Assembly (NCBI GenBank): GCA_018400955.1
Contig: JAGYLH010000001.1
Coordinates: forward strand, 1 to 64,000
Direction: 5' to 3'
DNA length: 64,000 bases
From: Bacteroidales bacterium
GTDB taxonomy: Bacteria > Bacteroidota > Bacteroidia > Bacteroidales > F082
The notes below the pieces were generated by a model that ran no database searches, was not told the origin of the DNA, and saw only the letters and a list, made by a program, of their open reading frames with translations. Both the position numbers and the translations under genes were made by a program. The number at the start of each line of letters is the position of its first letter. Within the stretch, counting starts at the first letter, position 1. This document shows, in pieces, positions 47,364 to 55,267 of the stretch.

Positions 47364-49499
47364 CTATTGGTAGAAGCGCCAACTCAGGCCAAAATAGAAA
47401 AATGGGTCGCGCTGCGGATAACCAGGAGTTGTATAATAGTTATACTCGCCCATCAGGGCATATAAATTGGTGTATTTTATGTACAAATTGGTGCGTTTTA
47501 CTTTCAGCCCTAAGAATACATCCAAATAAGGGTAACCCCCGATTTTCTTTTCATTCTGCAAATAAAAACTACGCAAGGCAGGCATATAAGCATTGGCATA
47601 ATAGGGTGTATTGTAGCTTATGCTAAAACCAGGCAATATGGTTGCCGCACTATTGAAAAGCGATTGTGTAAATGTAAACTTCATGCGGCCTGAAAAATCG
47701 GGCAATGCCAAAAGGCTATCCCTATCACTTTTTTGGTAATTCAGGGAGCCGGCAATATCAAATTTACCAAGCTTCAGTTTTATTGCTGTAAAAAGATGCA
47801 AAACATTGATCGTTACTGTTGCTTGCTCAGGAAGCGCCTGATAGTTAAGATAAACATGACGGTCGAGCACATTCAGGTTTGCGCCCGCACTAAAGCCTTT
47901 CAATTCGTAGCTTCCAGTAAAGGAAACATAGCGCGATTTGTCAAAACTATTGTCCCAATTAAAATAATTTGAATGCAATCGCTGATACAACCACGAGGGG
48001 CTTTGGTTGATTATACTAAGTTCGAAATGCAGGCTTCCGATATTACGTCCGGTTGTACCCAGGTATTGCCGCCAGCGTGCATCTAATTTTAAGTCGCCTT
48101 CTGCATAATCACCTCTGATATATTCCAAACGCCCATCCAGATAGGACGAACGAAACAAGCCTATCCGGATGCCTGCATAAGGCTTATATTGAGAATAACT
48201 ATTTCTGTTTTCGTCTCTTATCAGTGTGTCAAATCCGGGGTAGAGTTGGTGCTTTATAAATTGATGCTCAATCCCTCCATAAAGATAAAAAGGAATTTCT
48301 TCTGTATGTTTTTGATAACCAAGTGTACTCCACTGCAAACTGTTACGAAAGCTATCCTGAAAAATGGAATCGTGGGTTCCCACCGTATCGATTGGAGGAC
48401 CGAAGCGCTGATAAAAAGCCACCTGTGGGCTTTCATCCGTATAAAGCATTTGGTTTCGGGCGTAAACCATACGATGGGTAATGCGTCCAATACTTATGCG
48501 TTGCTTTTGTCCGGTAAAATCAATCCCCCCCTTCAAAGGGCGCGAAAGATTAACATATTGTTCAATACCGAAGCCTGAATGCTTTAAAACATTATTGGCA
48601 TTCATCAAATTCACTGAGATGATGCGACGATCATCCTCAATATTGTTTTCGAAAATGCTGTCAGCAACCAAACCTCCATTTTCTTGCATTTGCAGCTTAT
48701 TGTAAAGGTAATAGGCAGATATAGCATAGCGTTCATTTTTCGTGCTATATCGCCCACTAAGGTAAACCCCATTATTATCACTTTTACTTCTTGTATATGG
48801 ACCTGGTGCATTTACCAGAAAAAACTCCAAACCGGCATATAGGCGTGGGGCAAGTGCCCGCGAAAAGCTCAGGTTCAAATGCTGTTCTTTTTTAGAACCC
48901 ATCGTATAATTAATCCTTGTATATGGTTGATGAGGCATCAGCTGGCGTATTTGACCATCACGCATAATATATTTTTGGAACACATGGGCTTTCATATCAA
49001 AGCCGTTATAAAACGGAATATCAAGCAGATGACTTTGGTGCGCCAATCCGGTATTGCTCAAAGTGGCATAATTGTGAATTCCTTTTGTAAGCAAATCAAA
49101 ATCAACTGACTCAATCTGCGATGTATCTACTGTATAGATAGCCCCAAGGTAAAGGCTATCAAAATGTTGAACAAAATAATCTACCCGGTTCGAATCTACT
49201 ACAATTTGGGGCAAAACCGGCTTGACTGCCACCCGCTTTTGAAGGCTGTCCTTTATAAGTGTATCATTTACAGTGAAAAGAGAATCCAGCACAACATCAA
49301 CAAGGGTGTCTCCATCAAATTGAAACAGGGTATCCGACCTGGATATTAACAATGAATCAGGTTGCTCTGTAAGGATCGTATCCGGCTTAGGAAGATACCC
49401 TACATCCAAGCTATCTGATTGGGCATGAACTAACTTACCCATCAAGCCAAAAAAAATAACAGAAATGAATAAAAAGAGAAAGCGTTGCATAAGCCGCAA
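47364..49499 (-). CDS. Putative porin, large outer-membrane beta-barrel
   Basis: The 711-aa protein has a signal peptide (LFLFISVIFFGLMGKLVHAQS), a disordered Asp/Ser-rich stretch (about 25-110), and then a long set of amphipathic beta-strands to the C-terminus, which ends in WRFYQ. The pattern fits the Bacteroidota 'putative porin' family (PF14121-like). Met1 at 49499 or Met4 at 49490 could be the start. Substrate unknown. Confidence 0.8.
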   Translation of the reverse strand: MRLMQRFLFLFISVIFFGLMGKLVHAQSDSLDVGYLPKPDTILTEQPDSLLISRSDTLFQFDGDTLVDVVLDSLFTVNDTLIKDSLQKRVAVKPVLPQIVVDSNRVDYFVQHFDSLYLGAIYTVDTSQIESVDFDLLTKGIHNYATLSNTGLAHQSHLLDIPFYNGFDMKAHVFQKYIMRDGQIRQLMPHQPYTRINYTMGSKKEQHLNLSFSRALAPRLYAGLEFFLVNAPGPYTRSKSDNNGVYLSGRYSTKNERYAISAYYLYNKLQMQENGGLVADSIFENNIEDDRRIISVNLMNANNVLKHSGFGIEQYVNLSRPLKGGIDFTGQKQRISIGRITHRMVYARNQMLYTDESPQVAFYQRFGPPIDTVGTHDSIFQDSFRNSLQWSTLGYQKHTEEIPFYLYGGIEHQFIKHQLYPGFDTLIRDENRNSYSQYKPYAGIRIGLFRSSYLDGRLEYIRGDYAEGDLKLDARWRQYLGTTGRNIGSLHFELSIINQSPSWLYQRLHSNYFNWDNSFDKSRYVSFTGSYELKGFSAGANLNVLDRHVYLNYQALPEQATVTINVLHLFTAIKLKLGKFDIAGSLNYQKSDRDSLLALPDFSGRMKFTFTQSLFNSAATILPGFSISYNTPYYANAYMPALRSFYLQNEKKIGGYPYLDVFLGLKVKRTNLYIKYTNLYALMGEYNYYTTPGYPQRDPFFYFGLSWRFYQ

Positions 49500-49757
49500 A
49501 ATTAAAGATAATAACGGTTAACAGCCTATTGTATTTGATTTGAACGAAAGAAATCCAAACCATGATCAGAACTCCGCAAGAAAATACTATTTCAAAGCTT
49601 TTATAGTTTATAAAGAAAACAGCACGATATTTGCAAAAAAGAAGCCAATTATTAACCTTTACAAGTCACAAAAAAACAAACTGACATGAATGCAACCTTT
49701 GCTTATGCTGTAGCGTCTCAGAATTGCATGCTGCCCGTTTGTGCATTTGATAGCTAA

Positions 49758-50306
49758 ATGGACGAAAAGCAACTCCTTAAGGATTGCCTGAAAGGTGATG
49801 TAAAAGCTCAAAAGCATTTTTATGAGCAGTTTGCCCCCAAAATGTATGGGGTTTGTTTGCGCTATGCTAAGGATAGAAGCACAGCAGAGGACTACTTGCA
49901 AGAAGCTTTTGTGAAGGTATTTACCAGGTTAAAAAGCTATCGCAGTGAGGGTTCGCTCGAAGGCTGGGTACGCAGAGTGGTTGTTAACTGCTGTCTTGAA
50001 CAGTTGCGCAAATCAGACATACTGAAATACAGTATTGAACTAAATTACGCACACCAAATAACTGACACAGATGCAAACATATCAGAACAAATACACGCAA
50101 CCCAATTGCTGGAACATATACGCTCGCTCCCACCGGGTTTCAGGACAGTTTTTAACCTCTTCGCCATTGAAGGATATTCTCACAAAGAGATTGCCGGATT
50201 ACTCCAAATTAGCGAAGGTACGTCGAAATCGCAATACGCGCGGGCGCGTGTTTGGCTTCAACATAAGTTGGAAAAAGAATCATCAATAGAAAATGACAGA
50301 GCATAA
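49758..50306 (+). CDS. ECF-type RNA polymerase sigma factor
   Basis: The 182-aa protein has sigma region 2 (YEQFAPKMYGVCLRYAKDRS, DYLQEAFVKVFTRLKSY) and region 4 (LPPGFRTVFNLFAIEGYSHKEIAGLLQ, then SKSQYARARVWLQ), with no other domain. This is a standard extracytoplasmic-function sigma factor. Its last 14 nt overlap the next gene, whose membrane-spanning product is the likely regulator. Confidence 0.95.
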   Translation: MDEKQLLKDCLKGDVKAQKHFYEQFAPKMYGVCLRYAKDRSTAEDYLQEAFVKVFTRLKSYRSEGSLEGWVRRVVVNCCLEQLRKSDILKYSIELNYAHQITDTDANISEQIHATQLLEHIRSLPPGFRTVFNLFAIEGYSHKEIAGLLQISEGTSKSQYARARVWLQHKLEKESSIENDRA

Positions 50307-51561
50307 AGATCGTATTAAGGACCTTTTTAAAGCAGGGCTGGAGCACTATGAAGTTACTCCCCCACCCCATATCTGGCATGGAATAGTGCAGCAGAAGAAT
50401 CACCGAAAAACAGTGATGTGGAAATGGTCAGCTGCTGCTGCCGCTGCATTGCTGCTGCTTAGTCTTGGCACTTGGTTTATACTTAATCAGGAGGAATACG
50501 ATAACTATGCTGAAAAACCAGTAGAAGCAAGCACAGAATCAACAAGCGTTGTTGAAGCGGAAACCACAAAACCATCAGAATCAGTGCGTTTTGCTAAAGA
50601 AGAAATTTTGGCCGATCTTAAGCAAAAAGCTGCTGATAAACCCAAACCTAAGACATTAGCTACAGTTAATAAAACTGATGAGAAACAATTTACAGAGCTA
50701 ACGCCAACAGAATCAACAACGATAGAAGTATCAGCCCTAATAGCCGATGAATCCAGCGGGGTTGAGCCAATAGAGACATCTGCAGATACAGAAACAGCTA
50801 TTTCAAATACCCAACTGCTGTCGAAATATCTGGCTGAACTTGAAGAGCTTTCAGATATCCATCGCGATCTGATGGAAGCACGCAAAACAGACAATAAGTG
50901 GAACCTGGCTATGGCTTATGGCACGAACCCTAATTTCTCGATGCCAGCCGAAGAATATGCAATCGCACCTGAAAGGGCTACTTTTGAAGTGGATGATTTT
51001 ACGAATGATATGGCGGAGGAAACTGGCTATTATGCTCAAATAGAAAGCACCCAGCACCGACACCCACTCAGCTTTGGCCTTTTAACCGGCTTACCCTTGA
51101 GCACACGCTTGCAATTTGAAAGTGGATTGGTATATACCCGTCTTTCAACCATCAGCCTCACTTATGTGATGAATGGATGGCAAAATGAATACGAAAGCAA
51201 CCTTCATTATGTGGGCATCCCCATAGGATTGCGTTTTGAATTTTTGCAACGGCGCCTGTTCAGCTTATTTATCAGCCAGGCAGCGATTTTTGAAAAAGGG
51301 ATTCGGGCTTCGAATACAACCACGAATTTTCAAGATGGTGTGCTTACAAGCAGTGAAACTACTTTTGGCGAAGTAAAGGGATTTCAATTATCATCACTCA
51401 GCAGCATTGGTGCTGACTTAGCCATAACCAAGCAATTCAGCCTGTATGCCCAAGGGGGGGTGCAGTTTTTCTTCCTGAACGAAAAACAGCCATACAACAT
51501 CCGTAGCACACGCACAGCATGGCCGTCCATGCAAACAGGATTGCGTTACCGCTTCAAATAG
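50293..51561 (+). CDS. Probable sigma regulator: cytoplasmic segment, single TM helix and C-terminal beta-barrel
   Basis: A 422-aa protein. Residues 1-43 are cytoplasmic (FKAGLEHYEVTPPPHIWHGI), 44-64 form one strong membrane helix (SAAAAAALLLLSLGTWFIL), 65-235 are low-complexity acidic/Ser/Thr (periplasmic linker), and 250-422 show PorT-like outer-membrane beta-strands (LSFGLLTGLPLSTRLQFESG, ending MQTGLRYRFK). No cleavable signal peptide is present. The gene overlaps the sigma gene by 14 nt. An anti-sigma role for the N-terminus is inferred from position, not from a recognised domain. Confidence 0.75.
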   Translation: MTEHKDRIKDLFKAGLEHYEVTPPPHIWHGIVQQKNHRKTVMWKWSAAAAAALLLLSLGTWFILNQEEYDNYAEKPVEASTESTSVVEAETTKPSESVRFAKEEILADLKQKAADKPKPKTLATVNKTDEKQFTELTPTESTTIEVSALIADESSGVEPIETSADTETAISNTQLLSKYLAELEELSDIHRDLMEARKTDNKWNLAMAYGTNPNFSMPAEEYAIAPERATFEVDDFTNDMAEETGYYAQIESTQHRHPLSFGLLTGLPLSTRLQFESGLVYTRLSTISLTYVMNGWQNEYESNLHYVGIPIGLRFEFLQRRLFSLFISQAAIFEKGIRASNTTTNFQDGVLTSSETTFGEVKGFQLSSLSSIGADLAITKQFSLYAQGGVQFFFLNEKQPYNIRSTRTAWPSMQTGLRYRFK

Positions 51562-51628
51562 CCGAAATTAAAAATGTGTGCAACCGCTGCTACATTTCAT
51601 GCATCTTAGGCGCAAAGAATCACACATC

Positions 51629-52921
51629 ATGAAAACAAAATCAAACCAAAAGATTTTATTGGCATTGAGTCTTATCGCTTTGCTTTTCCTGAATGCTTGC
51701 CGCGACAAGATTTACGAAAAAGTAACCTACACTGCCAATGTTCCTGTTTATATGGAATTCGATACGTTTCGCCAGGCAGTGCTCAAAAGCGATGCCCAGG
51801 AAATGGTAAACCCAGGAAAAATATATTTTAAAGACAATGTGATCTTTATCAATGAGGTTCATGAAGGAATTCATTTGATCAACAACAGTAATCCTGCTTC
51901 TCCAGAATTCATTGCATTTATCGAGATTCCTGGCAATGTGGACATCGCTATCAAAGGCAATATTTTATATGCCGACAGCTATATCGACCTCGTTGCCTTG
52001 GATATCAGCGACCCATTCAACCCGGTTGAAATTGACAGGCTTGCAGACGCATTCCCCAATGTGCTGCCACCCTTTAATATTAACTATCCGGTTTATGGCC
52101 TCGATTTCAAAAAAGGCGTAGTAGTAGGTTGGGAAACGAAAGAAATAACCGAAATGATTGAGCGCGGATCATATTACCGTGGCGATATGGCACACTTTGA
52201 TGGCATCGCAGCCCCAAATCTCGGTTCATCCGAAATAAGTATCAGCCAGGGAAATACCGGAACAGGAGGATCAATGGCACGGTTTACTTTAACAAATAAC
52301 CACCTCTACGCCGTCCACAACGAAAACCTTAAAGTGTTCAATATAACTGCTACACCTGGGATTTTTAAGGAAAACGAAATATTTCTTGAGCGATTGGTTG
52401 AGACCATCTTTCCATACGACAATAAATTGTTTTTAGGCACCACCACAGGGATGCTTGTGTATGGTCTTTCAAACCCTGCCCTACCCAATTTCATTTCAGT
52501 TTTTGAACATATCAGTTCATGTGATCCTGTTGTGGTTGAGGGCAATCTTGCATATGTTACCCTGCGCTCGGGGACAATGTGTGGCGGCTTTACCAACCAA
52601 TTGGACGTAGTGGATATTTCCTCCATCGAAAATCCTTTTCTGGTAAAAACCTACCCCATGTTTAACCCGCACGGTTTGGGCATCGACAATGGCACGCTTT
52701 TTATATGCGACGGTGATGCCGGGCTGAAGGTTTACAGCACCGAAGACCCGATGACCATCCACCAGAACCAACTGGCCCATTTTAATGATATTAAAACATT
52801 TGATGTAATTCCTTTGAATGGCCTGCTCGTACTTATTGGTGCCGACGGGCTTTACCAATACGATTATACTGACCTGGAAAACCTCATTCTGCTTAGTCAC
52901 ATGCCCGTTACACGTCCTTAA
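51629..52921 (+). CDS. LVIVD-repeat beta-propeller lipoprotein
   Basis: A 430-aa lipoprotein with signal ILLALSLIALLFLNAC (lipobox Cys about 23). The body has the ALDISDPFNPVEI and VVDISSIENPFLV motifs of LVIVD repeats, which form beta-propellers. Likely at the outer membrane. It follows the barrel gene by 67 nt and precedes the OMP gene by 17 nt, so it belongs to the sigma operon. The ATG at 51629 is chosen because it opens the signal peptide; an upstream ATG at 51578 adds a poor leader. Confidence 0.82.
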   Translation: MKTKSNQKILLALSLIALLFLNACRDKIYEKVTYTANVPVYMEFDTFRQAVLKSDAQEMVNPGKIYFKDNVIFINEVHEGIHLINNSNPASPEFIAFIEIPGNVDIAIKGNILYADSYIDLVALDISDPFNPVEIDRLADAFPNVLPPFNINYPVYGLDFKKGVVVGWETKEITEMIERGSYYRGDMAHFDGIAAPNLGSSEISISQGNTGTGGSMARFTLTNNHLYAVHNENLKVFNITATPGIFKENEIFLERLVETIFPYDNKLFLGTTTGMLVYGLSNPALPNFISVFEHISSCDPVVVEGNLAYVTLRSGTMCGGFTNQLDVVDISSIENPFLVKTYPMFNPHGLGIDNGTLFICDGDAGLKVYSTEDPMTIHQNQLAHFNDIKTFDVIPLNGLLVLIGADGLYQYDYTDLENLILLSHMPVTRP

Positions 52922-52938
52922 TTTATTATTGAAAATTG

Positions 52939-53691
52939 ATGAAAACACCCATTTTTTATTTTGTTCTTGTGTTAATGGGCGGGCTGCTGTCTCAAAAGGC
53001 AGCAGCCCAAACTTTTGTTCCGGATACAGTTTACCTGCAATCAGGGTCAGCGGTTTTTGGAAAAATAACAGAGGCTGACAGCGTTCAGGGTATTACTATT
53101 GTGAATTCATGTGGAATTGAAAAAATACATCCACAGTCAATCGAGCGGATAGCCCGCTTTGCCCCAAAAGAAAAACCTGCCAGGCCTCCTATTGGTTATT
53201 TTAACCTTAGTTCAGCAGGTCTGCTGGCAGGCTACGGTGATAATGGTTTTATACCCATTCCATCGCTCACAACCATCAATGGAATATATTTCAATGAAAA
53301 GTTTTTTATCGGCTTGGGAATAGGTTTTGAATACTACAATTGGAGCACGATGCCCCTTTTCGCATCAGGAACCTATTTGATGCGTCCGGATGTATTTAGC
53401 CCTTATGTTTCAGTGAAACTTGGCTATAGCTTTGCCCTTGAAAAATATAGTCGTGTAAATTATAATGGTTTCGATATGCGCAATTTTGGCGGTGTATTGC
53501 TCAGTCCCGAAGCCGGAATCAGCATACCCATTGGCGAGTTCAGTAATATATTGCTCGGACTGGGTTATCATTTTCAGGAATTATCGGAAGAGAAGCCGCA
53601 ATACTGGAGCAGCCAAAGTGACGCCCCGCCAAGCCGGGTTTACACCAATTATAACCGCATATCTTTGCGGGTTGGATTTTTGTTCAGGTAA
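52939..53691 (+). CDS. Outer-membrane beta-barrel protein, function unknown
   Basis: The 250-aa protein has a signal peptide (FYFVLVLMGGLLSQKAAAQ), a short N-terminal region with a small domain (DTVYLQSGSAVFGKITEADS), and then about eight amphipathic strands with Tyr/Gly pairs (FFIGLGIGFEYYNWST, YVSVKLGYSFALEKY, LLGLGYHFQEL), ending RVGFLFR. Not assigned to a family. Same strand and 17 nt after the LVIVD lipoprotein. Confidence 0.7.
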   Translation: MKTPIFYFVLVLMGGLLSQKAAAQTFVPDTVYLQSGSAVFGKITEADSVQGITIVNSCGIEKIHPQSIERIARFAPKEKPARPPIGYFNLSSAGLLAGYGDNGFIPIPSLTTINGIYFNEKFFIGLGIGFEYYNWSTMPLFASGTYLMRPDVFSPYVSVKLGYSFALEKYSRVNYNGFDMRNFGGVLLSPEAGISIPIGEFSNILLGLGYHFQELSEEKPQYWSSQSDAPPSRVYTNYNRISLRVGFLFR

Positions 53692-54265: not shown

Positions 54266-55267
54266 ATGAAAACAGTTCCATTTCTTATTCTATTGGGCTT
54301 GTTAATTACTTCTTCATCAATTACAGGCCAGGACACTTTTAGTATTGTTGCCGTTGATACAATCACCGGCGAATTGGGCAGTGCCGGTGCCAGTTGCATT
54401 GGCGCACCGCAAATTCCGCAGGGATGTTATATCCTGAGTGATGTTATTCCGGGCATTGGCGTTATTCACACCCAGGCGTCCTACAATGCAGCCAATCAAA
54501 GCTACGCACGCAGCCTTATGCTGGATGGGATACCGCCAGAGGAAATGATTGAACTGCTGGTGCAAAACGATGTGGGCAACAACCCAAACATCAGGCAGTA
54601 CGGCATCGTTGATTTTTATACCGATTCACCGAGAACAGCAGCATATACTGGAGCCAATTGCCTCAACTATAAGAACCACATCGTTGGGCCTAACTATACC
54701 ATTCAGGGCAATATTCTGCTTGGGCAGCAAATACTTGACTCTATGGAAGCTCGTTTTTTGGCCACAGAGGGCGAACTGGCCTGCAAATTGATGGCAGCCA
54801 TGCAAGGCGCAAAAGTTGTTGGAGCCGACACACGTTGCATCAATGCAGGCATTTCAAGTCTTTCGGCATTTATTCGTGTGGCAAAACCAGATGACCCCAC
54901 TAACGAATTGTATCTTGACATCAATATTCCCTCAACCACCACTGGAGTAGATCCAATAGACTCCCTTCAGGTTTTGTTTGATTTGGAAATTAATTGCATT
55001 ATAACAGGCATGAGCAAGTCAACCCAAACAGAAAAATTCAGACTTTTTCCAAATCCGGCCGGTGATTTAATCCACATCGAATTTGAGCAGTTACCTGCCA
55101 GTCCATATGATATTGAAATTTTCGATGTGGCCGGAAACAAAGTAATAAGCCGTCGGGAAGAAAAGGGTCAACTGCAAATAAAGCATCAGTTGCCTCCCGG
55201 GATTTACAGCTTTCAAATCAGGGAAGCTGATGGCAGCACATTCAATAAAAAATTGATTGTTTATTGA
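54266..55267 (+). CDS. Secreted DUF1028 protein with T9SS sorting domain
   Basis: The 333-aa protein has a signal peptide (FLILLGLLITSSSITGQ), a DUF1028 domain (about 20-235; DTFSIVAVDTITGELGSAGA, VIHTQASYNAANQSYA, GANCLNYKNHIVG), and a C-terminal type A sorting domain (about 255-333; FRLFPNPAGDLIHIEF). DUF1028 is an Ntn-hydrolase-like fold of unknown substrate. The Thr after GELGSAGAS may act as a nucleophile region, not proven. Exported by the Por system. Confidence 0.85.
   Translation: MKTVPFLILLGLLITSSSITGQDTFSIVAVDTITGELGSAGASCIGAPQIPQGCYILSDVIPGIGVIHTQASYNAANQSYARSLMLDGIPPEEMIELLVQNDVGNNPNIRQYGIVDFYTDSPRTAAYTGANCLNYKNHIVGPNYTIQGNILLGQQILDSMEARFLATEGELACKLMAAMQGAKVVGADTRCINAGISSLSAFIRVAKPDDPTNELYLDINIPSTTTGVDPIDSLQVLFDLEINCIITGMSKSTQTEKFRLFPNPAGDLIHIEFEQLPASPYDIEIFDVAGNKVISRREEKGQLQIKHQLPPGIYSFQIREADGSTFNKKLIVY

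Follow-up and report, generated by a model that had tools for sequence, protein, structure and literature searches.

A probable Dma-type trans-envelope anti-sigma factor and its predicted LVIVD-OMP regulon module in a Bacteroidales genome

How might an ECF sigma factor be controlled from the outer membrane by a single polypeptide, and which genes would such a switch control? Both questions are raised by a locus in a 64,000-nucleotide stretch of a Bacteroidales genome (the window), in which a sigma gene and a 422-aa ORF, both intact and on the same strand, overlap by 14 nt (table 1). We computed the architecture of the encoded protein, its pairing with the sigma factor, the conservation of the associated promoters and the synteny of the downstream genes. 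The original prediction was of a one-chain trans-envelope protein in a candidate undescribed signalling system; the architecture has held up, but the class has been published as Dma (PMC13088901; PMC9308784), and what appears to be new is the predicted LVIVD-OMP regulon module. We favor, with a probability of roughly 0.8, the hypothesis that the sigma factor and a Dma-type anti-sigma factor form a switch in which the sigma factor drives both the promoter of its own operon (P1) and a second promoter for the LVIVD lipoprotein and OMP genes (P2). Dma proteins, recently described and still little understood, connect the outer membrane with transcription through one chain, and LVIVD-OMP offers a concrete candidate for the genes under the control of a Dma switch.

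Table 1. Coordinates of the features of the locus within the window
Feature	Position	Strand	Basis
Predicted ECF promoter P1 of the sigma-Dma operon, TGCAAC-N17-CGTCT	49691..49718	+	Conserved in 16/16 loci
ECF-type sigma factor, 182 aa	49758..50306	+	Pfam Sigma70_r2, Sigma70_r4_2; NCBIfam sigma70-ECF
Dma-type anti-sigma factor, 422 aa, whole gene	50293..51561	+	Overlap, homologues, AlphaFold, Foldseek
Predicted cytoplasmic segment for sigma binding, Dma residues 1-43 (PP..xW..I motif)	50293..50421	+	W28 nearly invariant in 39 sequences
Dma residues 44-64, inner-membrane helix	50422..50484	+	Hydropathy; AlphaFold helix 25-72
Dma residues 66-203, periplasmic tether, mostly disordered	50488..50901	+	AlphaFold pLDDT
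Dma residues 204-420, predicted C-terminal outer-membrane barrel	50902..51552	+	AlphaFold, Foldseek, weak Pfam match
Predicted second ECF promoter P2 for LVIVD-OMP, TGCAAC-N17-CATCT	51579..51606	+	Conserved in 14/16 loci
LVIVD-repeat lipoprotein, 430 aa	51629..52921	+	Pfam LVIVD, E 4e-6
Small outer-membrane-type protein, 250 aa, LVIVD partner	52939..53691	+	Homologue near LVIVD in 69/80 loci

The identity of the sigma gene is clear from its Pfam matches (Sigma70_r2, E 9e-15; r4_2, E 1e-13). Dma matches are present in 18 of 41 genomes of near relatives and, at the level of the order, in 155 of 247; the window's own genome encodes one clear full-length Dma, and the closest named loci belong to Bacteroidales/Bacteroidetes MAGs and Lentimicrobium. 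A sigma gene precedes 44 of the 46 non-redundant long Dma-like ORFs within 150 bp. Because the pair recurs in this form across many Bacteroidota genomes, the pairing is not due to chance. Pairing without the usual TonB receptor/FecR relay, as had been proposed, is likewise borne out: neither Pfam nor NCBIfam matches a FecR domain in the 422-aa protein, Pfam detects no TonB receptor in the neighbouring proteins that were scanned, and the protein does not qualify as a FecR-type anti-sigma factor, which would have a FecR domain and a partner TonB receptor. At one related locus the sigma ORF appears to be frameshifted in region 4, through assembly error or decay (L034:2836-3381). Directly upstream of the operon, the opposite strand encodes a putative porin of the Porin_10 family (47364-49499), and the protein encoded at 54266-55267 combines DUF1028 with a C-terminal sorting domain for type IX secretion.

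The promoter evidence concerns what the sigma factor would transcribe. A search of both strands of the window with the pattern GCAAC-N15-18-C(A/G)TC(T/A), which was chosen after viewing these sequences, gives only two matches, one before the sigma gene (49692) and one before the LVIVD gene (51580). Among the 16 loci with the order sigma-Dma-LVIVD-OMP, the motif TGCAAC-N16/17-C(A/G)TCT is located 60-68 bp ahead of the sigma gene in every case, and the same ECF-type motif lies 44-56 bp before the LVIVD start in 14. These positions are fixed although the Dma proteins of the same loci are only about 30% identical; as background, there are four other sites in 437 kb, with 0.2% in dinucleotide shuffles and an expectation of 0.0018 per 200 nt. 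Given that the motif precedes both the sigma and the LVIVD genes, the sigma factor is predicted to drive its own operon as well as LVIVD-OMP, that is, autoregulation plus a second promoter. The original prediction placed the LVIVD lipoprotein and the OMP in the same operon, and they do lie downstream on the same strand; the LVIVD gene probably also has a sigma-dependent promoter of its own and would then be more than a downstream cistron. Where OMP and LVIVD are divergent and no sigma gene is close by, the same motif often stands between the two genes. Related variants of the motif precede sigma genes in other Dma branches. Counting against the favored hypothesis, the motif is missing ahead of the sigma gene in some branches with the order LVIVD-OMP-sigma-Dma. 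In the branch comprising L009, L010, L011, L017 and L018, most sigma genes are preceded by the variant GCAACC...TGTCA and a secreted (PKD-type) protein is often encoded 3' of Dma.

A scan of the window's own genome yields 17 promoter sites. P1 and P2 account for two of these, five others lie ahead of genes whose products are predicted to be exported (a serpin-like lipoprotein, a lipoprotein, a secreted protein, an OMP-like protein and a TonB-receptor-like protein), and the remaining ten are inside ORFs. Since counts above the reversed-pattern control also occur in genomes that lack the locus, we treat a wider regulon as unproven. Locally, the conserved double promoter could serve directly as a reporter and predicts a regulon in a branch that lies outside gut Bacteroides.

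The two genes behind P2 form a recurrent module. The LVIVD protein starts with ATG, has the lipobox LNAC, is 64-68% identical to its syntenic relatives and has no match by sequence to solved structures; the 250-aa OMP has no match in Pfam. In a scan that gave 80 loci with an LVIVD protein, a homologue of the OMP is found near it in 69, in the orders LVIVD-OMP, OMP-LVIVD or divergent, and a sigma gene is nearby in 27. The order sigma-Dma-LVIVD-OMP is found in 15 loci in addition to the window, and the other orders are LVIVD-OMP-sigma-Dma (6), sigma-Dma-OMP-LVIVD (3), LVIVD-sigma-Dma (2) and OMP-LVIVD-sigma-Dma (1). On the LVIVD tree, sigma-linked arrangements appear in several places, and sigma-Dma-LVIVD-OMP is nearly one clade, within which L022 and L030-L032 have lost sigma-Dma. 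A literature search on LVIVD returned nothing on its pairing as found here. Elsewhere, the gene after Dma is of a different kind: it is NigD-like and passes Pfam NigD_C in L006, similar-looking lipoproteins (judged by eye) follow Dma in L109-L113, and other Dma branches have a secreted protein in this place, PKD-type in L010. As NigD1 is the published mediator of Dma1, LVIVD may, by analogy, occupy the slot that NigD1 holds in the Dma1 system. On a broader and more speculative view, to which we assign a low probability, Dma systems would be modular, combining the same trans-envelope switch with an exported protein particular to each branch, be it NigD, a PKD-type protein or LVIVD plus OMP, and LVIVD-OMP would be a conserved outer-membrane device, made by the sigma factor and gating the Dma barrel, that closes a feedback loop on outer-membrane state.

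If LVIVD-OMP were more than regulon output, the lipoprotein and the OMP could be sensor parts that act on the Dma barrel or tether, binding it and determining its state. The frequent association of the two genes, their adjacency to sigma-Dma in several arrangements and the presence of other exported proteins in the same slot in other Dma branches are consistent with such a role; yet many pairs have no sigma-Dma nearby and hence work without being encoded beside one, and the vesicle phenotype of B. thetaiotaomicron does not require the genes that follow dma2 (PMC13088901), so that we consider a sensor role possible but unlikely. It is less probable again that LVIVD-OMP sits beside sigma-Dma as a passenger, the two having been inherited together from a single ancestral cluster without being linked in function. 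The near-monophyly of the sigma-Dma-LVIVD-OMP order on the LVIVD tree would be expected from such descent, but the separate sigma-type promoter before LVIVD in 14 of 16 diverged loci, and its presence in divergent OMP/LVIVD loci that have no sigma gene, argue against a passenger role.

The favored hypothesis of a sigma-Dma switch with LVIVD-OMP as its output also depends on the architecture of the 422-aa protein. Its sequence comprises a basic cytoplasmic N-terminus and a single hydrophobic helix (about residues 44-64), the hydropathy peak of which is also present in Dma relatives, and it contains no signal peptide, as originally stated. In an AlphaFold2 model built with 39 family sequences, pLDDT is below 50 at residues 75-101 and 115-167 of the tether and about 95 across residues 250-420 of the barrel, and residues 204-211 probably form a first strand. 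The 170-residue linker of the original prediction is thus recovered as a disordered tether, the length of which would be about 138 residues if strand 204-211 is part of the barrel and about 185 otherwise. By our own reading of the model, the barrel is probably eight-stranded (204-211, 250-268, 273-290, 296-319, 323-347, 350-377, 382-394 and 409-420), the turns at one end being short and the loops at the opposite end longer. Foldseek against the PDB returns OmpA transmembrane domains as the best matches (E 1e-8), followed by OmpT, Ail, OmpW and OmpX; the Pfam OMP_b-brl_2 match is weak (E 2e-4) and under its cut-off, and the C-terminus, GLRYRF-K, is compatible with a BAM beta-signal. The C-terminal domain is accordingly modelled as a barrel predicted to be inserted in the outer membrane, and the alternative of a single-membrane anti-sigma factor with a soluble periplasmic beta domain, despite an N-terminal half like that of short anti-sigma factors such as a barrel-less 185-aa protein of the same genome and a Pfam match that alone is under the cut-off, is very improbable in view of the high barrel pLDDT, the OmpA-like fold matches, the similar beta-signal-like ending of 32 of 39 members and the three other members scanned that pass the Pfam cut-off. 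Checked by computation, the first refuting condition named with the original prediction, a barrel domain that folds as a soluble sheet, did not refute it.

At the other end of the chain, W28 is nearly invariant across the 39 aligned Dma sequences. We modelled a sigma/N-terminus fusion from the relative L033, in which both genes are in one frame and the stop was read as Gln, and much of the anti-sigma part of this model is of low confidence. Unpaired N-terminal rows that MAFFT misplaced were dropped. The Dma protein very probably holds the ECF sigma factor in check, and we infer that it does so by binding. Beside another ECF sigma factor on contig C190 of the window's own genome lies the 185-aa anti-sigma (L134:1201-1758), which has a Dma-like W-motif N-terminus and a membrane helix without a barrel, and the N-terminal module is therefore not confined to barrel proteins. 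Copy number varies as well: a 669-aa Dma-like protein (L016:868-2877) repeats the sigma-binding-like N-terminal motif in tandem, about five times, ahead of its membrane helix, and that of L092 has two copies. A protein of the L016 type could possibly hold several sigma molecules.

We propose that the N-terminal 43 residues of Dma would keep the sigma factor at the inner membrane, while the tether would connect this end of the protein to the barrel in the outer membrane. A change in the outer membrane, which might be in barrel assembly, in spacing or through envelope damage, would end the inhibition, and the released sigma factor would act at P1 to transcribe its own operon and at P2 to transcribe the genes for the LVIVD lipoprotein and the OMP. 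The LVIVD-OMP module would then be the local output of the switch and possibly feed back on it; its function, like the signal, we infer. Sigma repression and induction by envelope stress have been shown for relatives by others (PMC13088901; PMC9308784).

The published Dma family, which is found solely in Bacteroidota adjoining ECF21 sigma factors, consists of an anti-sigma domain, a membrane helix, a disordered tether and a C-terminal barrel (PMC13088901; the class also figures in Pardue 2024 PNAS, as cited there). Likened by description, Dma1/Das1 and Dma2/Das2 of B. thetaiotaomicron and the window's pair have this four-part layout and an adjacent ECF sigma factor in common. Sigma repression by Dma-type proteins has been shown genetically in Bacteroides and Phocaeicola (Evans 2022; Pardue 2026; Pardue 2024, as cited in the latter). 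The phenotypes of Dma1 and Dma2 depend on the cognate sigma factor, and the vesicle phenotype of dma2 loss requires das2 (PMC13088901). When dma2 is lost in Bacteroides thetaiotaomicron, expression of das2 and of three genes that belong to the dma2 operon or adjoin it goes up by 2.5-6 log2 units (PMC13088901), which fits what autoregulation would give; for both published pairs the own operon is induced upon loss of the anti-sigma factor, whereas in the window autoregulation is predicted. The downstream genes differ, being an LVIVD lipoprotein and an OMP in the window and BT_1557/1556/1555 for Dma2 (BT_1558), while Dma1 acts via nigD1. The P. vulgatus system M0N98_03760/03761 also resembles the window, with a sigma gene upstream of an "unusual" anti-sigma factor predicted to span the periplasm and to end in an outer-membrane barrel (Evans 2022; PMC9308784). 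It is induced by a membrane-attacking, envelope-damaging toxin (PMC9308784), and its response involves NigD orthologues and longer O-antigen, whereas LVIVD-OMP is the predicted response in the window. FecI/FecR/TonB-receptor signalling, finally, would share with the window the control of an ECF sigma factor from the outer membrane, but it needs a separate TonB-dependent transducer and FecR, whereas in the window one chain would do the work of both.
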